A stretch of 19,157 nucleotides of DNA from an uncultured Victivallales bacterium (lineage in GTDB: Bacteria; Verrucomicrobiota; Lentisphaeria; Oligosphaerales; JAFGRS01). The stretch is taken from the NCBI GenBank assembly GCA_903834675.1, contig CAILKC010000014.1, forward strand, positions 1-19,157, read 5' to 3'. Every line of letters begins with the position of its first letter. Position 1 is the stretch's first letter. Below are positions 1,643 to 19,157 of this stretch, piece after piece. The notes below the pieces were generated by a model. That model ran no database searches and was not told the origin of the DNA. It saw only the letters and a list, made by a program, of their open reading frames with translations. Both the position numbers and the translations under genes were made by a program.

Positions 1643-3373
1643 ATGCGCTTGTCACAGCTGGTTGGACAACGGATCAAGGAAGCCCCCCGCGACGCCCAGA
1701 CTGCCAGTCACATCTTCCTCCTGCGCGGCGGCTACTGTCGCCCGGTCTCCACCGGCATCTATACCCTGCTGCCACTCGGTTTCCGCGTAGCCGCCAAGAT
1801 CGAAACGATCATCCGCGAAGAAATGAACCGCGTCGACGGCCAGGAAGTCCTCATGCCCGTGGTCCAGCCCGCGGAACTCTGGGAAGAGAGCGGACGCTAT
1901 CTGACCGTCGGCCAGGAACTCCTGCGCTTCCGCGACCGCAATGACAAGCCCATGGTCTTGGCCATGACTCACGAGGAAGCCGTCTGCCACTTGGCGCGCA
2001 CCGAGCTAAGTTCCTACAAGCAACTTCCCTGCATGCTCTACCAACTGCAGACAAAGTACCGTGATGAGGCCCGCCCGCGCGCTGGCCTGATTCGCGTCCG
2101 CGAGTTCACCATGAAGGATGGCTACAGCTTCCACACCTCGCAGGAATGCCTGGAAGCCTACTACCGCCGGGTCCACGAGGCCTACGAGCGCATCTTCCGC
2201 CGCGTCGGCCTGCGCGACTGCATCAGCATCGAGTCGGACTCCGGCATGATCGGCGGGGCCGTCAGCCATGAGTTCATGGCCGTCGCCGACTGCGGCGAAG
2301 ACACCATCTTCGCCTCGCCCGATGGGCGCTACAAGGCCAACCGCGAATGCGCTGTCTCCAGCCCCGTCTTCACCAAGGAAGCTCCTCTGCCCCTGGAGAA
2401 AGTGCAGACGCCGGGAACCAAGAGCATCGAGGACGTGGCCGCCTTCCTGGGGGTCCAGCCGACCCAGACCGGCAAGGCGGTCCTCTACCGGGACATTGAG
2501 GGCAAACTGGTCTTCGTCTGCATCCGCGGCGACATCGAGGTCAACGAGGCCAAGCTGCGCAAGGTCTTGCAGAGTCCGCAACTGGAATTTGCCAACGACG
2601 CCGAGATCGTGGCCGCGGGGACGGCGCCGGGCTATGCCTCGCTGCTGAACCTCGATCTGACCAAGATGCGCGTCGTCGTGGACCGCTCGTTTGCCGAATC
2701 CAGCAACCTCGTGGTCGGGGCCAACCTCACCGACTATCACGTGCGCAACTTCAACTTCGAGCGTGATCTGACCCTGGAGCAGCGCGCCAAGATCACCCTG
2801 GCGGACATCGCCACCGTACGCGAGGGCGACCCCTGCACCCTCACCGGTCAGCCGCTCAAGATGCTCCGCGGCATCGAGGTCGGCAACATCTTCCAGCTCG
2901 GCACCAAGTACAGCGTCGCCATGAACGTGAACTACCTGGACCAGGACGGCAAGGCCAAACCTATGATCATGGGCTGCTACGGCATCGGCGTCGGCCGTAC
3001 GCTCGCCGCAGTGATCGAGCAGAACCATGATGACTACGGCCCCATCTGGCCCGCCGCCATCGCCCCCTTCGACGTACACCTCTGCGCCCTGAACATCCGC
3101 GATGAGGCCGTGCGCACCGCGGCGGAGACGCTCTACCGGGAACTGCAGGCGGCCGGGTTCGACGTACTCTTCGACGACCGCGGCGAAAAGGCCGGCTTCA
3201 TGTTCAACGACGCCGACCTGATCGGCGTACCGCTGCGCCTGATCGTGTCGCCCAAGACGCTGGCCGAGGGCAAGGCCGAGTTCAAGCGCCGCAGCAGCCC
3301 CGAGAAGACCATGATCGACCTGGCCCAGGTCGTCGCCAGGATGCTCGCCGAGGCCACCCCGGCCAAGCCCTGA
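1643..3373 (+). CDS. proS: Prolyl-tRNA synthetase, bacterial type with editing domain
   Basis: This class II aminoacyl-tRNA synthetase charges tRNA(Pro) with proline in the cytoplasm. At 576 residues it matches the usual bacterial ProS length (about 570). Motif 1 lies around TLLPLGFRV..EMNRVDGQEVLMPVVQP (41-76). Motif 2 lies around RDEARPRAGLIRVREFTMKDG (140-160). Motif 3 is GIGVGRTLAAVIEQNHDDYG (447-466). Between motifs 2 and 3 lies the INS (YbaK-like) domain, roughly 225-395, which hydrolyses mischarged Ala-tRNA(Pro). Its TGKAVLYRD segment carries K278, at the place of the E. coli editing lysine. The anticodon-binding domain is about 477-576. The start ATG follows AGGA nine bases upstream. 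No gene is closely coupled, and the repeat array begins 31 bp after the stop. Confidence 0.98.
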   Translation: MRLSQLVGQRIKEAPRDAQTASHIFLLRGGYCRPVSTGIYTLLPLGFRVAAKIETIIREEMNRVDGQEVLMPVVQPAELWEESGRYLTVGQELLRFRDRNDKPMVLAMTHEEAVCHLARTELSSYKQLPCMLYQLQTKYRDEARPRAGLIRVREFTMKDGYSFHTSQECLEAYYRRVHEAYERIFRRVGLRDCISIESDSGMIGGAVSHEFMAVADCGEDTIFASPDGRYKANRECAVSSPVFTKEAPLPLEKVQTPGTKSIEDVAAFLGVQPTQTGKAVLYRDIEGKLVFVCIRGDIEVNEAKLRKVLQSPQLEFANDAEIVAAGTAPGYASLLNLDLTKMRVVVDRSFAESSNLVVGANLTDYHVRNFNFERDLTLEQRAKITLADIATVREGDPCTLTGQPLKMLRGIEVGNIFQLGTKYSVAMNVNYLDQDGKAKPMIMGCYGIGVGRTLAAVIEQNHDDYGPIWPAAIAPFDVHLCALNIRDEAVRTAAETLYRELQAAGFDVLFDDRGEKAGFMFNDADLIGVPLRLIVSPKTLAEGKAEFKRRSSPEKTMIDLAQVVARMLAEATPAKP

Positions 3374-3404
3374 CGCACCACGGCGAAGGGGTCTGACGGG
3401 GCTC

Positions 3405-3921
3405 CCGCCGTACTTGGAGCCGGCACTCTCCGCCGTATCTGGAGCCGGCGTTCTCCGCCGTATCCCCTGGAGCGCTCTCCGCCGTACCTGGAGCCGGCGG
3501 TCCGCACCGGCCACGAGCCGGGGCTTCCGCCGTATCCCCTGGAGCGCTCTCCGCCGTACTTGGAGCCGGCGGTCCGCACCGGCCACGAGCCGGGGCTTCC
3601 GCCGTATCTGGAGCCGGCGGTCTCCGCCGTATCCCCTGGAGCGCTCTCCGCCGTATCTGGAGCCGGCGGTCTCCGCCGTATCCCCTGGAGCGCTCTCCGC
3701 CGTATCTGGAGCCGGCGGTCTCCGCCGTATCCCCTGGAGCGCTCTCCGCCGTATCTGGAGCCGGCGGTCCGCACCGGCCACGAGCCGGGGCTTCCGCCGT
3801 ATCCCCAGGAGCGCTCTCCGCCGTATCTGGAGTCGGCGGTCCGCACCGGCCACGAGCCGGGGCTTCCGCCGTATCCCCAGGAGCGCTCTCCGCCGTATCC
3901 CCTGGAGCGCTCTCCGCCGTA
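3405..3921. repeat. Mosaic tandem array: 18 CCGCCGTA words separating three module types
   Basis: The 8-mer CCGCCGTA occurs 18 times from 3405 to 3921. The 17 intervals fall into three classes: a, 17 nt (TCTGGAGCCGGCGGTCT and variants); b, 16 nt (TCCCCTGGAGCGCTCT, or with CCCAGG); c, 40 nt (starts like a, then CCGCACCGGCCACGAGCCGG and GGGCTT). The order is a a b c b c a b a b a b c b c b b. Repeat periods are 25, 24 and 48 bp. Each module has its own inverted repeat: GGCGG-tct-CCGCC, GAGCGCTC, and CCGGC-cacga-GCCGG. A partial unit continues to about 3937. The array lies between the convergent genes proS and the M48 protease. Open frames cross it on both strands because the modules contain few stops, but nothing supports translation. 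A single c module recurs at 6861-6906. Confidence 0.95.
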
Positions 3922-3954
3922 TCCCCAGGAGCCGACTGTCCGCAGCGGCAGAGG

Positions 3955-3971
3955 GCGCCCCGCTGGGGCGC
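3955..3971. terminator. Candidate GC-rich hairpin downstream of the M48 protease gene
   Basis: GCGCCCC-gct-GGGGCGC is a perfect 7-bp stem with a 3-base loop, 36 bp beyond the protease stop codon on the minus strand. No T-tract follows on either strand, so it is at best a hairpin-type transcription end or an mRNA 3' stabiliser. Confidence 0.3.
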
Positions 3972-4006
3972 GTGTGGGTGGGTCAGGGCGGACGGCACAG
4001 ACGGGC

Positions 4007-5971
<1,965 letters not shown>

Positions 5972-6681: not shown

Positions 6682-6860
6682 CGCACGCTCTCCTTGCCCC
6701 AAGGGCGTTTGTGAACCCGGTTCTCCGCCTGCCGACGCCAGCGCCGCACAACCCTGACAGGCGCCTGCCCGGCACGTGGCACTATACCGCGCCCTGCCCT
6801 GCCGCGCCAAGACACCCAGCGCCACGCCAGGGCTGTTTCTTTTTCCGGGTGGTAGGCACG

Positions 6861-6906
6861 CTGGAGCCGGCGGTCCGCACCGGCCCTGCCGGGGCTTCCG
6901 CCGTAC
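6861..6906 (+). repeat. Solo copy of the proS-downstream array module c
   Basis: CTGGAGCCGGCGGTCCGCACC followed by GGCC-ctg-CCGGGGCTT and CCGCCGTAC matches module c plus its CCGCCGTA word. Only the loop is changed and shortened by two bases (ACGAG becomes CTG). It shows that the 48-bp module exists outside the array, so the array probably grew from a dispersed hairpin element of the REP type. Confidence 0.8.
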
Positions 6907-7042
6907 ATTGGGATACCGCGAACCCGCCCGAAACGGGCTGGGCATCGCGGGCTCCAAGGCGGCAAGCAGCACCATGGCAGACGCATGCCAGATCCCGCGG
7001 CGGTTCCCCATCCCGGGCCTCTGGCCGACGCCTCACCGGCGC

Positions 7043-7162: not shown

Positions 7163-9223
7163 TCACGCCTCTTGCAGAACAACATCCAAGATCGTCACGC
7201 CGCCTGGCGTGACCTTGACTCTGAACGTGCGTTGCGTGCCGTTAGAGTCCTTGCCCACCCACCCGACTCCGGCGCTGGGGGAATCCATGAACTTGACCGG
7301 CAAGACGGGGTACTTGCTGACACTGACCACTTGCCTGATCGCGTACTTTGCGGTCACATTCGCGTAGCCGTAGCTATTCATTTCGGGGTTCGATAGATAC
7401 AACCTGTAGCGTCCGTCATCCATCCGCATGGGGACCATCGGCAGATTGCAGGTGAACAGATCGCAGCCGACCGTCTTGAGCAGCAAGGCGCACGCCTTAC
7501 GGAAGCCGGTGGTCACCTTGCAGAAGGTCAGGGTTTCCACCAGGACATTAGTGTGTTCCGGCGCGTCGGCAGGGTCGCCCTTGAGATTCTCCGTGCCATC
7601 GTCCGTCTCCGTCAGGGCGGTCAGCGCGTCCTTGTCCCCAATGCTCGCGTTGAAGGCGAAGGCGCACATCGGGTAGTTCGAGAACTTATCCACCAGGTAG
7701 AGGTCGGGACTGATACCGTGGTCTGCCGGAGCAAAGTTCTCAACCGCCGCCGTGCAGACAACCGCGCCCTTCCTGTAGGCGGCAACCGCCTGCTTCTCAG
7801 CCTCTGACAGCAAGTCGAAGTTGGGGACGAACAGGCAGCCCTCCGCACTGGCCAGGTACTCACTGCGCATGACCGCACCGCACAGAGTGCCCCGTTCTGC
7901 CATGTCGTAGTAGAACTTGTGTACCGTCCAACGTCGGGTGCGGATGTAGGCAGGCAAGGTGTTATACAGAGCCGTGTCAGACCAGATCAGGGTCGGCGCC
8001 AGGACCTGCCGCACGCCCTCCACAAAGCCGATATCGAGGCGTTCCCGCAGCCACTTCCATTCCTCGCCGCGGATCCCGTCACCGAGGCAGACCATCAGCC
8101 CGTCGAGAGCGCGCTTCAGGCCCTTGCCGGTGGTGGTCATGTAGCTGAGCAGGGTGTAGATGTCACGCTCAAGCAGGCATGGCGCGTGATGAAGGACGTC
8201 CCACTCCTCGGTGGCGTCCTTCACCCCCAGCAGGCTCAGCAGCTTGCCCTCCGGCACAAAGGCGGCGGTCAGCGGCGCGAGGGTCATGTAGCGGTGAAAG
8301 CGGTCGGGGTGCTCGGGGTGCTGCAGGCGCAGGCCAGTCGGAACGAGGTTCGGCATCAGGTAGTCCACGCCGGCCTGGACCAGGCGCTTCAGATCGACAC
8401 CCTTACAGTAGAGGGTCTCGAACGGGTCCGTGCAGTACATGCCGAGCACAATGACCTTCTTGCCGATCCGGTGCAGTCGACCGCAGACCTTCCGCCAAAA
8501 CTGCTCCCAGCGCCAGGCGTTGAACTCCACCCACTCCGCCCGGCAGGCACGCCAGATCCAGTCGCCGCGCCGGTTGCGCATGGGCCGACTGTCGTCCTGC
8601 ATGCCGTCGGCAAGGTCGGCGGGAAGCTCCAGGCCGGCATGGCCGCTGAATTGGCTGAGCATATCAGCCGAGAAATCGCCCTGGTGGAGGTTTGCGGAAA
8701 CAGGACAGAAGCAGTCCGCCACCTGCAGGCCGGCAAAGCCGTAATCCGTGAGCACCTCGCAAAGCCTGTCGACGAAGAAGTCCTCGTAGTAGCTGCCATC
8801 GGCCAGGCGCTTCAGGACATGCAGACCCCACTCGTGGCTGCGCGAGGCTAGCTTTACTTCGGGGTGCTCACTGAGCCACTCCGTGTGCCAGCGGTTACCA
8901 AGCTCAACGCCCATGATGCCGAGGTAGGGCTCGACGCCTGCCGCGGTCAGGTTCTGCAGCAGTATTCTCAGGTCGTAGTTGGTCCAGTCCTGACGAGCGC
9001 GGTCTTCATTGCGCGGGCTGCCGTAATAGGAGCAGTTGTCCGCTGGCAACGTGCGCTCAACCCTCATCCCCGCGTGTTGGTTCACGATGTCGGGATGGAA
9101 CAGGAACGCAGACACCCCGGTCGGGGCAAAAGACATCCGCTCAAGCAACTTCCCCACGCCTTTGTCCGCTTCCTCGCGGTCAAAGCCGATCATGGGCATC
9201 CAGACGTGGATCTCGCCTCGCAT
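7163..9223 (-). CDS. Unrecognised 686-residue protein, probable TIM-barrel glycoside-hydrolase-like enzyme
   Basis: I do not recognise a named family. The first 400 or so residues look like a beta/alpha barrel, with alternating strand and helix segments such as GVEPYLGIMGVELGNRWHTE (96-115), YEDFFVDRLCEVLTDYGFAG (146-165) with VADCF just after, KKVIVLGMYCTDP (255-267) and VDYLMPNLVPTGL (286-298). Acidic and aromatic residues at strand ends, the W/Y richness and a later Rossmann-like stretch (about 455-500, GCLFVPNFDLLSEAEKQAVA) resemble GH42-type or unclassified GH-A clan enzymes. The C-terminus (from about 600) looks like a small beta domain. No signal peptide is seen, so a cytoplasmic role is expected. 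ATG at 9223 is chosen because CAAGGAG lies eight bases upstream; a GTG at 9232 directly abuts that site. The gene is on the same strand as the secreted beta-helix protein, which suggests shared sugar metabolism. Catalytic residues cannot be assigned. Confidence 0.8.
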   Translation of the reverse strand: MRGEIHVWMPMIGFDREEADKGVGKLLERMSFAPTGVSAFLFHPDIVNQHAGMRVERTLPADNCSYYGSPRNEDRARQDWTNYDLRILLQNLTAAGVEPYLGIMGVELGNRWHTEWLSEHPEVKLASRSHEWGLHVLKRLADGSYYEDFFVDRLCEVLTDYGFAGLQVADCFCPVSANLHQGDFSADMLSQFSGHAGLELPADLADGMQDDSRPMRNRRGDWIWRACRAEWVEFNAWRWEQFWRKVCGRLHRIGKKVIVLGMYCTDPFETLYCKGVDLKRLVQAGVDYLMPNLVPTGLRLQHPEHPDRFHRYMTLAPLTAAFVPEGKLLSLLGVKDATEEWDVLHHAPCLLERDIYTLLSYMTTTGKGLKRALDGLMVCLGDGIRGEEWKWLRERLDIGFVEGVRQVLAPTLIWSDTALYNTLPAYIRTRRWTVHKFYYDMAERGTLCGAVMRSEYLASAEGCLFVPNFDLLSEAEKQAVAAYRKGAVVCTAAVENFAPADHGISPDLYLVDKFSNYPMCAFAFNASIGDKDALTALTETDDGTENLKGDPADAPEHTNVLVETLTFCKVTTGFRKACALLLKTVGCDLFTCNLPMVPMRMDDGRYRLYLSNPEMNSYGYANVTAKYAIRQVVSVSKYPVLPVKFMDSPSAGVGWVGKDSNGTQRTFRVKVTPGGVTILDVVLQEA

Positions 9224-9413
9224 GGCCGCCACTCCTTGCCTGCCACTATGCCTCCGGGCAAAGCAGTAGCATAGCAGGCACAGTGACCAACAATCGGGGG
9301 CTCAGGTTGACCGCCCGAAAAGGACCCGCGCTTGCCGCACGTCACGGCGTCACGGAGGCCACCCCCGCCAGGCCGGAAACCTTGCGGAGGAGGCGGACCG
9401 CCAGCCAGGAGCC

Positions 9414-9605
9414 TCAGCCCGGCTCCGCCGCCTCATCCGGCGCGTGAACCGCCTCAGGCTCTACCGTCACGGTCTCCACGCGGCGGTCGACTTTGCCGCC
9501 GTTACGGCCGCGCCAGTCAGTGCGGGGACCGTTGGCCATGCGCCGGGCAATGACGATGTACGCGGCGATGGTCTGTGCGTCTTTGTTGACTTGGGTGGTA
9601 GTCAT
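9414..9605 (-). CDS. Possible small ORF, 63 residues, no known family
   Basis: It starts with ATG at 9605, preceded by AAAGGGG seven bases upstream, a good ribosome binding site. The N-terminal half (MTTTQVNKDAQTIAAYIVIA) could form a helix; the C-terminal half is charged and acidic. Its ATG overlaps the stop codon of a short upstream ORF (ATGA), as in translationally coupled genes. It lies between the beta-helix gene and the 7163-9223 gene, on their strand. It may be a real small protein or chance; no homology is recognised. Confidence 0.4.
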   Translation of the reverse strand: MTTTQVNKDAQTIAAYIVIARRMANGPRTDWRGRNGGKVDRRVETVTVEPEAVHAPDEAAEPG

Positions 9606-9736
9606 CTGGTATCCCCTTTGTTGCCATTAACGTAGTGCCGCAGAACCGGATCGCGAATCTCTTCTTGACGAACGCGGTCCAGGCAGGCACAAATAAGGTC
9701 AAGGCTGCGGCGGGCCACAAAGAGCGCCACGGGCAT
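9602..9736 (-). CDS. Possible 44-residue ORF overlapping the next small ORF by ATGA
   Basis: The frame opens far upstream inside the beta-helix gene, but the first plausible in-frame ATG outside it is at 9736, with only GGTGAG as a weak binding site. The product (MPVALFVARRSLDLICACLD then RVRQEEIRDPVLRHY) has an amphipathic helical look. It could also be the remnant of a longer gene. Low confidence. Confidence 0.25.
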   Translation of the reverse strand: MPVALFVARRSLDLICACLDRVRQEEIRDPVLRHYVNGNKGDTR

Positions 9737-9822
9737 CTTCTCACCGCACCAGACCGAATCGGATTCCTCACCTACAGCCCGAAAGGCCCTTTTCTGAGGT
9801 GGCCTGCGAGAACCTGGCGCCT

Positions 9823-12504
9823 TCACGGCGTCGGCTGGATCCTCACATTGTCGACGTAGAACACCGCAGCCTGTTCGGCCAGACTGACAAATCCGAGCCA
9901 GTGGAGTTCGTGGAAGTCTGTGCCCTGGTTCGGGATGTTGTCGAAGCGCTGGGGTGGCTGGCCCGGCAGCGTGATGCTGACCGCATACGTCGTGGCGGCA
10001 TCCTTGCCAACCGCACCCTCGATCTCGAGGTGTACCCACTGGCTCAGCGGAATCCGCAGCAGCGGCCGGCCCGACGCCGTCACCTGGCCATCGGGCAACA
10101 CCGTCACCGTGGGGCCAATGTTTTCCGGGTAGACGCTATCGTCGCGCCATTCGGTGAACAGGTGAGCGCCCGGCTCCAGGCGCAGGTCGAGACTCTCGCG
10201 AACCCGGCCGGTCAGGTAGTGGGGCTGGTAGAACAGATGCGGTTGCCACGGCTGTGACAGCCCCGCGGCGTCGGTGAACTTCAGGCTGTGTTTGCCCGTG
10301 GCGGCCGCTTCATCGGTCACCCGGATGGTGGCGCCCTTCTCCTCTTGGTCATTAGCATCCTCCGGCGGCGCGCCCACGACGGTGTCTTCGAAGTCGTCAG
10401 CAACCCGCAGCGGCGGTGGTGGCGGCGGCAGCGGCGGCAGGACCGTCGGCGGGTAGACCAGGTCCCGCGCCTCATTCACCCACGCCGCATCGCCATACAA
10501 GCCCACCTCGCGAGTGTCAATCTGCGTGAAACCCAGGGCCAACGCCGGGGAGGTCGAGCGCAGCCGGAAATCGTACCTCGCCGCATCCACGAACTGCGGG
10601 TCGGCCACCACCGAATGCAGGTCCAGGCCAAGCGCCTGCCAGTCAGCGAAGGTCTTGCCATAGAAGCTGACGTCAGGGTTCGCGGCATTGTAGTAGACGT
10701 TGTAGTCCCAGTCGCCGGGCTTCTCGTTGGCGGCAAGGCGTTGCTTCAAGCTGCTTTCTGAGAACGGGATGAACAGATCGCCCTGGGTAAAGTCGATGAT
10801 GTTGTTGCGGAAGGTGTTGAGCCGACGTTCGTAATAGGGCCACAGCGCCTGCCGGGCGCTGCCGGCGAAGACGTTGTTACGGATCACGTGCTCGTGGCCG
10901 CCATTGTTGTACATCAGGCCGCCGCTGAAGGTGTTGTAGACGATGTTGTTCTCGACCAGGTAACGGTTGGTGGTGGCATCGAGGTAGATCCCCCAGCCGA
11001 TGTGCTTGTACGGCCAGACGTCATGGAAGAGGTTGTTGCGGATCACGCTACCGGGGGAATTCCCGAGCGTGTAGATCGCCCCGCCGTCGTCCAGCCACCC
11101 GTTCATCACGTGATGGACGTGGTTGTGCTCGACCAGGTTGTCGCGGCAGCGGCTGAACTCGTCGCCCCAGGTCCAGCCGATCGAAATGCCAGAGTAACGT
11201 ATGTCGTGGATCTCGTTGTGAGTGAGCTGGTTGCCAAATGACTGCAGGACTAACAGGCCGACGCCGCCAGGGTAGACATGCCCGGTGTCGTAGATGTGGT
11301 TGTTGTCCACAATGTTAGCGCTGCTGGTCAGGAGATCGGAACCGAGGTCGTTGGGAGTCCCGATACGGATGCCGCCAGTGCCGGTGTCGTGGACGCGGCA
11401 GTGTACGATGCGGGTACGTTTGCAGGCCTTCTGCAGGGAGATCGCATAGTCGCCCACCCGCGCGATCTCGCAGTTCTCGAAGCGGCAGTCCACCGCGCCG
11501 TCGACCATGATTGCCGCGGGGGCGCGGACGACAGCCTGCGGGTCGCTGTGCCCTCCGGGCTCAAGCACATAATCCTCGTACATGAAAGCCAGGCCCAGGA
11601 AGGTGACGTTGCTGACCGGGAGCCCCGGCGCGGCTTCACCGCGGAGCTCCATGAGCCGCACCAGGCGCGGGGCGACCACCACGGCGGTCCGCAGGTCCTC
11701 CCCAGGCATGGGGTAGTAGAGCAACTGTCCGGCCGTACGGTCCACGTACCACTCACCGGGAGCGTCGAGCGCCGCACGGATGTGCTCCACATAGTAGCGC
11801 TGCCCCTTGCCCCACCGCTCAAACGGCCAGGCGGCTCCGCCCGTAAAGGTCACCACCTTCTGCGTCTCATCGAGATCCTTGATCCGCAGGCGCGAGGTCT
11901 CCCAGGAGTGGAAGACGATGAGGTTGGCCCCGTCGAGGTCGCCCCAGCGCTCGAGGTCACCGGGCTTGTAGCGGAAGGCGGTGTGGCTGCGGTCCGTCTC
12001 CTTGCCGGCCGCGTCAAGCGCCGGTCCCGCTTTGCCGACGACGTAGAAGAAACCCTCGTTGGGGCTCCGGGCCGGTTGGCGCCGCTGGCCGTTGACCCAT
12101 AGCTGCCGGAAAGCCCAGCGCCCCTCGGCCACGCCCGGTAGCGGCGCCACCCATAGTTCGCCCGGCCCCGGCCTGAAGCCGGTGATCTCCTGCCCGCCGC
12201 TGAGGATCGGGCGCTCGTCAGGATAGGCGGCATAGGTGACGTTGGAGTCCTGCGGCCCGAGAATGAAGGGCGCCTCGAGCCCATAGGTGCCGCCGCGCAG
12301 CAGCACGGTCACCGGCTCCTGATTGCCGCCGACGCGCAGGGCACGGATACCGTCGCGAGCGCCACTGATCGTCGCCCACGGCGCCGCCAGCGTGCCGGCC
12401 TGGCCATCATCGCCCCCGGGGGCGACGTAGCGCGTGATCTCGGCGGCGGCCGAGGCGAGGGCAAACAGCGGCAGAGCCAGCAGAGCGAGTAGAGCGCGGG
12501 TCAT
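9823..12504 (-). CDS. Secreted right-handed beta-helix protein, GH141-like, with C-terminal beta-sandwich domain
   Basis: The mature protein is probably exported: MTRALLALLALPLFALASAA is a classic signal peptide. The N-terminal module (24-150) has the ARDGIRAL and TVLLRGGTY motifs that open GH141/pectate-lyase-like beta-helix enzymes, and FRQLWVNGQRRQPARSPN (132-149) is typical of that group. Parallel beta-helix rungs follow from about 295 to 575 (NVTFLGLAF, CRFENCEIARVGDYAI, IVDNNHIYDTGH, LVENNIVYNTFSGG, VIRNNVF). LDDGGAIYTLGN (471-482) and GWGIYLDATTN (503-513) carry candidate catalytic acids. A proline-rich linker (PPLPPPPPPL, 690-699) leads to a jelly-roll-like domain (700-893, VADDFEDT..VFYVDNVRI) that may bind carbohydrate. 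Its 893 residues fit a multidomain exo-enzyme. ATG at 12504 is supported by GGAGG nine bases upstream; the open frame reaches 12840. The likely substrate is a plant or algal polysaccharide, unproven. Confidence 0.88.
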   Translation of the reverse strand: MTRALLALLALPLFALASAAAEITRYVAPGGDDGQAGTLAAPWATISGARDGIRALRVGGNQEPVTVLLRGGTYGLEAPFILGPQDSNVTYAAYPDERPILSGGQEITGFRPGPGELWVAPLPGVAEGRWAFRQLWVNGQRRQPARSPNEGFFYVVGKAGPALDAAGKETDRSHTAFRYKPGDLERWGDLDGANLIVFHSWETSRLRIKDLDETQKVVTFTGGAAWPFERWGKGQRYYVEHIRAALDAPGEWYVDRTAGQLLYYPMPGEDLRTAVVVAPRLVRLMELRGEAAPGLPVSNVTFLGLAFMYEDYVLEPGGHSDPQAVVRAPAAIMVDGAVDCRFENCEIARVGDYAISLQKACKRTRIVHCRVHDTGTGGIRIGTPNDLGSDLLTSSANIVDNNHIYDTGHVYPGGVGLLVLQSFGNQLTHNEIHDIRYSGISIGWTWGDEFSRCRDNLVEHNHVHHVMNGWLDDGGAIYTLGNSPGSVIRNNLFHDVWPYKHIGWGIYLDATTNRYLVENNIVYNTFSGGLMYNNGGHEHVIRNNVFAGSARQALWPYYERRLNTFRNNIIDFTQGDLFIPFSESSLKQRLAANEKPGDWDYNVYYNAANPDVSFYGKTFADWQALGLDLHSVVADPQFVDAARYDFRLRSTSPALALGFTQIDTREVGLYGDAAWVNEARDLVYPPTVLPPLPPPPPPLRVADDFEDTVVGAPPEDANDQEEKGATIRVTDEAAATGKHSLKFTDAAGLSQPWQPHLFYQPHYLTGRVRESLDLRLEPGAHLFTEWRDDSVYPENIGPTVTVLPDGQVTASGRPLLRIPLSQWVHLEIEGAVGKDAATTYAVSITLPGQPPQRFDNIPNQGTDFHELHWLGFVSLAEQAAVFYVDNVRIQPTP

Positions 12505-18907: not shown

Positions 18908-19157
18908 AGCGTGATAGCGTGAGAGCGTGAGGGTGTAAGGGAGTAAGGGAGTGAGGGAGTAAGGGAGTAAGGGTGTAAGGGAGTAAGGGTGTAAGGGAGT
19001 AAGGGAGTAAGGGAGTAAGGGTGTAAGGGAGTAAGGGAGTAAGGGAGTGAGGGTGTGAGGGTGTAAGGGAGTAAGGGTGTAAGGGTGTAAGGGAGTAAGG
19101 GTGTAAGGGTGTAAGGGTGTAAGGGTGTAAGGGTGTAAGGGTGTAAGGGTGTAAGGG
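18908..19157. repeat. Octamer tandem array (GGTGTAAG / GGAGTAAG), runs off the window
   Basis: About 31 consecutive 8-bp units begin 7 bp after the URO-D stop, with no insertion or deletion up to the window edge. The first three read AGCGTGAT, AGCGTGAG, AGCGTGAG. From 18932 the units are GG(T/A)GT(A/G)AG, almost all varying only between T and A at position 3. The last seven are identical GGTGTAAG, so the array looks youngest at its right end. GGG runs recur every 8 bases on the plus strand, a spacing compatible with G-quadruplex formation. Total length is unknown because the window ends inside it. Confidence 0.95.

Follow-up and report, generated by a model that had tools for sequence, protein, structure and literature searches.

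A head-to-tail mosaic array of REP/REPIN-like palindromes between convergent proS and M48 peptidase genes of an uncultured Victivallales bacterium

REP sequences usually exceed 100 copies per genome, and in the BIMEs of Escherichia coli they alternate in orientation and are separated by inter-REP sequence (PMC2817692). In Pseudomonas fluorescens SBW25, REPINs are extragenic units made up of two inverted palindromes each, and REPs also form tandem arrays, evenly spaced arrays of a single REP type among them; the two largest contain 12 sequences (PMC3116915). The GTAG- and CGTC-tagged REP superfamilies are described as 20-40 bp palindromes that form head-tail dimers and tandem clusters, with members in the PVC superphylum (O. 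terrae) (PMC3733652). The main text of that paper does not mention "Lentisphaer-", and a literature search, by title and abstract, gave no paper on such repeats in Lentisphaerae or Lentisphaera. Here, we describe an array of palindromes from an uncultured Victivallales bacterium, located in a 19,157-nt stretch of contig CAILKC010000014.1 that was analyzed as a whole and is referred to below as the window.

The array lies between proS and a gene for an M48-family peptidase (Table 1). The initial annotation had placed it between convergent proS and protease genes, and this was borne out by gene calls made with our own codon-score script. The 8-mer CCGCCGTA occurs 18 times from 3405 to 3921, and every copy is on the + strand. 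A recount in the window confirmed the 18 copies, the 17 intervals, and the three insert classes reported previously (a, 17 nt; b, 16 nt; c, 40 nt). Copies are spaced by 25 nt (five intervals), 24 nt (eight), or 48 nt (four), and, written by insert class, the units run a a b c b c a b a b a b c b c b b, including the a-b alternation that had been described for the middle of the array. A 19th copy, missed in the initial annotation, is found outside the array at 6898; the 19 copies of the window compare with a mean of 0.88 and a maximum of 3 in 200 dinucleotide shuffles. By eye, both ends of the array carry degenerate half-units, the left one at about 3390-3404, which fits the pattern often left by tandem growth. 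No Rfam family matched the array at gathering scores. A coding role was considered and rejected: the 25-nt units shift the reading frame, and the long + strand open reading frames (ORFs) starting at 3414 and 3560 were not picked by the gene calls.

Table 1. Positions of the array, its parts, and related features (window coordinates; R1 is the covariance model described in the text; loci L220 and L226 to L229 are from the related genome G001)
Feature	Positions	Strand	Remarks
proS, prolyl-tRNA synthetase	1643..3373	+	PF00587, PF04073, PF03129
Whole mosaic array	3405..3937	+	18 head-to-tail units; lies in the gap of 633 nt (3374-4006) that separates the convergent genes
186-nt block, large internal duplication	3423..3608	+	Recurs at 3690-3875; 179/186 identical; 267-nt shift
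First long-form unit of four (40-nt class)	3489..3537	+	TGGAGC-CGGCGG-apical hairpin-CCGCCG-TATCC; R1 67.8 bits at 3487-3541; R1 training sequence
Second long-form unit	3561..3609	+	Ends TATCT; R1 63.6 bits at 3559-3619; outside training
Middle stretch, three a-b pairs	3599..3745	+	49-nt period; short (CGGCGG-TCT-CCGCCG) and truncated (GGAGCGCTCTCCGCCG) forms in alternation
Third long-form unit	3756..3804	+	R1 66.7 bits at 3754-3808; training sequence
Fourth long-form unit	3828..3876	+	TGGAGT variant; R1 62 bits at 3826-3880; outside training
Degenerate half-unit, right array end	3922..3950	+	By eye
M48-family peptidase gene	4007..5971	-	Convergent to proS; PF01435
REPIN-like doublet, single, outside the array	6862..6956	+	Long-form half on +, then an inverted half whose feet are the same but whose stem differs
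L220, Y1 locus			Array unit 89 nt
L226, Y1 gene			Array unit 62 nt, x4 and x7, on both sides of the gene
L227, Y1 locus			Array unit 123 nt; palindrome by eye
L228, Y1 locus			Array units 36 and 48 nt
L229, Y1 locus			Array unit 33 nt, x3.8; palindrome by eye

The initial annotation treated the 8-mer as independent punctuation shared by three modules. Folding showed this to be wrong: the 8-mer makes up one side of a stem, being the 3' arm and foot (CCGCCG-TA) of a single palindrome, TGGA-GC-CGGCGG...CCGCCG-TA-TCC. What had been read as three modules with punctuation is therefore three lengths of one palindromic unit arranged head-to-tail. Class c is the long form, whose arms enclose an apical hairpin; class a is the short form, with TCT where class c has the hairpin; and class b is a truncated form in which most of the 5' arm is missing. 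Classes a and c are indeed palindromic, as had been claimed for every class, once the 8-mer is included, but class b is only weakly so. Folded as a single DNA strand, the array was more stable than 99 of 100 shuffled sequences (z -2.69). RNA folding, which had been proposed as a check, is less striking for pieces of the array: the a-b-a stretch gave a z of -2.38, a lone c unit did not exceed shuffles in stability (z -1.10), and the b-b stretch folded no better than shuffles (z 0.48). Among the short variants, 97% of cells are paired in the stem (28 of 29 distinct variants), two of the six stem pairs are changed on both sides, and the covariation score was reached by none of 500 shuffles; since the rows of this test are related to each other, the covariation is support and not proof. 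A 20-40 bp palindrome whose stem pairing is kept is what is expected of a REP.

The regular spacing and the invariant arm are what might be seen in a protein-binding array, held at its length by selection and occupied by a nucleoid protein or DNA gyrase, and there is a precedent in that BIME-2 binds gyrase and BIME-1 binds IHF (PMC2817692). However, no binder is known for the array sequence, and the spacings are mixed (24, 25, and 48 nt); we consider this reading very improbable.

We then compared the site with that of a relative. ProS, the one protein used for placement, assigns the window to Lentisphaerota. The closest of 80 loci listed by ProS (92% identity over residues 1-575) belongs to an uncultured Victivallales MAG (L057, contig CAILUI010000217.1), whose genome is designated G001. 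The order proS, M48 gene, lemA is common to both, with blastn pieces of 84%, 78%, and 85%. In L057, proS ends at 7731 and the M48 gene occupies 7825-9789, encoding a protein of 654 amino acids, the same length as that of the window. The gap between the two genes is 93 nt in L057 versus 633 nt in the window, and no tandem repeat is present between them in L057. Within the array, periods of 49 and 72 nt occur throughout, and a 186-nt block is repeated 267 nt further on, indicating that the array grew by block duplication. This duplication and the lack of the array in the nearest relative support the earlier suggestion of a recombination product. Repeats are prone to misassembly from short reads, and the whole array, or the number of its units, might thus be an artifact; against this, individual units carry position-specific variants (TCCCCAGG, CTTGG, GGAGT), and classes a and c were found independently in other assemblies. 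An artifact is, in our judgment, highly improbable, though the exact unit number may be wrong.

With the array as the query, single long-form palindromes were found at other places in G001. A covariance model (R1) was trained on seven long-form copies from G001 and two units of the window. In the window, R1 matched all four c units. It also matched one isolated copy, at 6860-6918 (61.5 bits), that was outside the training set and is the long-form half of a doublet; on either side of this doublet lie lemA and a gene at 7163-9232. Like a REPIN, this doublet consists of two palindromes, inverted, as one unit, and inverted doublets were also seen by eye among the copies in genomes G007, G019, and G005 (L369 and L371 included). 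The array is made of the + half alone; the inverted half is absent, and no inverted foot ([CG]TCCA) is present between 3380 and 4006.

R1 gave 17 matches in G001 at an E value of <=1, eight of which scored 52-77 bits (the seven training sequences and one other, C38); these counts are a lower bound, with 150 of 9358 candidates scored. The nine matches below 52 bits were not counted as copies, except that one (C233, 35.7 bits) was retained in the context count below. Among 59 relatives, R1 matched only G001 and G007 at an E value of <=0.001 with stricter filters. The short form TGGAGCCGGCGGTCCTCCGCCGTA, with up to 3 mismatches, was present in 8 of the 148 genomes searched, namely, G007 (30 places), G019 (18), G005 (8), G009 and G010 (4 each), and G006, G014, and G114 (1 each), and was absent from G001; the reversed-pattern control gave 0. 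The pattern GCCGGCGGTC N{1,30} CCGCCG was enriched in G007 (38 versus 9 reversed) and not in G001 (25 versus 40 reversed). The feet by themselves (exact TGGAGC N{10,38} GTATCC) were below the reversed control in G001 to G004 (23 versus 56 in G001) and about equal to it in G005 (19 versus 15) and G006 (20 versus 17). No exact match was obtained to the class a 24-mer in genome contigs or to a 21-mer in viral contigs. Whether the modules exist anywhere else had been named as decisive for the array; classes a and c do have copies in other genomes, but class b had none in the 6 genomes searched.

The surroundings of 52 copies were examined, from loci of G007 (32), G019 (8, of 18 places), and G001 (9). 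Outside predicted genes were 47 of the 52 (14 of the 47 at contig edges), in DNA that is 73-91% coding according to our own script run on fragments, so the copies are mostly extragenic, as REPs are. One of the five copies inside predicted genes (L325) has no foot and is probably a chance match. An inverted partner foot was found downstream of 21 of 48 testable copies versus upstream of 8 of 48, at a background of 10% per 116 nt; a stricter script gave 14 of 40 downstream versus 4 of 40 upstream. Doublets are thus common among the dispersed copies but not universal. Direct runs of the short form outside the window were seen at two loci, with three copies at a 31-nt period in L303 and two copies 38 nt apart in L302. 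At seven loci of G007 (L300, L304 to L307, L310, and L316), the doublet by eye forms part of a more extended element common to these loci, which has GGAACGCCC..GGGCGTTCC-like outer ends and may be a larger MITE.

The initial annotation also proposed a two-way transcription barrier. Hairpins kept by selection for that purpose, or as mRNA 3'-end stabilizers for proS and the M48 gene, would be in keeping with an array that takes up most of the gap between convergent genes and whose DNA strand folds better than nearly all shuffles. However, no intrinsic terminator (G+C-rich hairpin followed by a T run) was found on either strand in 3300-4100, the nearest relative manages without an array in its short gap, and the dispersed copies are not specially convergent (20 of the 52 lie between tandem genes, 8 between convergent and 5 between divergent ones, 14 at contig edges, and 5 inside predicted genes). 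We regard a selected role of this kind as unlikely. Nothing was found in favor of a dedicated role for the array; it may affect transcription from both sides passively.

We favor as likely the view that the array arose when one half of the lineage's REPIN-like palindrome was amplified locally, head-to-tail, probably by slippage or unequal exchange, and that it is presumably passive and has no dedicated function. The complete element would be a doublet of inverted halves, TGGAGC-[stem..stem]-TA...TA-[stem..stem]-GCTCCA, present as isolated copies mainly in intergenic DNA, and its dispersed copies may have been spread by a Y1/RAYT-type transposase acting in trans. One copy, or the + half alone, would have arrived between proS and the M48 gene, after which the half was presumably duplicated directly. 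Class a would have arisen through loss of the apical hairpin and class b next through loss of part of the 5' arm, giving the putative direction c to a to b; alternatively, class a could have come directly from the short form known in G007. Because class b had no copies in the genomes searched, its origin is inferred from sequence. The mixed units would then have been multiplied by repeated block duplication with periods of 49, 72, and 267 nt, most likely through replication slippage and unequal exchange aided by the hairpins, and duplication of this sort would account for the order of units without any code. The outcome would be a passive, hairpin-rich buffer behind two converging genes.

A transposase of the Y1 type was also sought. 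Y1 (PF01797) matches were present in all 11 genomes tested, with 13 in G001. A scan of 43 Y1 loci from 8 genomes (drafts, with some loci cut by contig ends, and distinct from the window's own genome) for the short form with up to 4 mismatches gave two matches, neither of which has the palindrome by eye; the same scan recovered 39 of 45 element loci and gave 7 matches in 400 kb of G001. R1, applied to 18 of the 43 loci, gave at best a 22.4-bit match within an ORF, plus one of 15.7 bits. With no convincing match to the array's palindrome at the 43 loci, the enzyme of this palindrome family was not found among them.

At five of the 13 Y1 loci of G001, other palindromes are arrayed in direct tandem next to or within the ORF (Table 1), and head-to-tail palindrome arrays therefore appear to be a habit of the lineage. 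These arrays adjoin the Y1 genes or lie in their N-terminal part, seemingly with another palindrome for each gene. A Y1 transposase that copies single hairpins head-to-tail, one by one, and not as inverted doublets would make such arrays direct products of the enzyme and not of slippage; we hold this to be quite improbable, and slippage or unequal exchange remains our preferred reading. Some Y1 proteins bear a REP sequence insertion (PMC6006769). Strain comparison of Y1 genes that lie in or contain direct palindrome arrays could tell slippage from transposase growth of REP arrays. A survey of 400 kb of G001 revealed one clear palindrome array by eye (L200:4828-4972), a perfect 50-nt tandem of 2.9 copies with another palindrome, GGCGGGTGCCCTCACCCGCC, which is also found all around the L226 Y1 gene. 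A permissive script that looked for GGAG..CTCC double hairpins of any kind was abandoned: shuffled DNA scored higher (40 pairs versus 15 in 400 kb of G001), so the script does not discriminate, and its only use was as a pointer to L228 and L229, which were then read by eye.

Further repeats and genes were noted in the window. An 8-nt array of the AGGGTGTA type (28.5 copies) at 18930-19157 continues past the contig end, and CTGAACC is repeated 6.1 times at 209-251. Two CCAGGGC-NNN-GCCCTGG palindromes, at 1-17 and 131-147, resemble those next to the L221 Y1 gene. On the - strand, 12614-12823 matches a group II intron (D1-D4-6, RF02005, 89.9 bits) upstream of a predicted gene at 9823-12504, and a single ORF at 14109-16229 matches both the LTXXQ and PBP (phosphatidylethanolamine-binding) domains.

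How the array compares with described systems can now be set out. The REP/BIME likeness noted in the initial annotation holds insofar as the palindrome of the units also occurs dispersed, mostly between genes and in part as inverted doublets, but it does not extend to alternating orientation. As in BIME-2 of E. coli (PMC2817692), palindromes are clustered in tandem outside genes; unlike BIMEs as described there, all units point one way, with nothing between them. The 20-40 bp palindromes, their head-to-tail and tandem clustering, and the PVC host recall the GTAG/CGTC superfamilies (PMC3733652), whereas the feet here are TGGAGC/TATCC or TGGAGA/TTAA, and by eye neither tag is present at either end. 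The copy number is also below that of REPs, with a maximum of 30 at 3 mismatches (G007, 5.8 Mb) and at least eight strong R1 matches in G001. The inverted, extragenic two-palindrome unit and the tandem arrays are shared with SBW25 (PMC3116915). Unlike the arrays reported there, the 18 units abut without inter-REP spacers (24/25 nt) and come in three lengths, and, unlike for SBW25 REPINs, no Y1/RAYT locus flanked by the same palindrome was found (43 loci, 8 genomes). The novelty of the array is thus REPIN-half anatomy in a spacer-free, single-orientation arrangement of three lengths, which departs from REPs in copy number, tag, and RAYT. It is a mosaic whose units can be traced to isolated copies dispersed in relatives, and for this phylum our literature search gave, by title and abstract, no paper on such repeats. 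Since related genomes reveal the source of its units, the family is best called REP/REPIN-like and the array a bacterial repeat of known kind in an unusual layout, not a new system.
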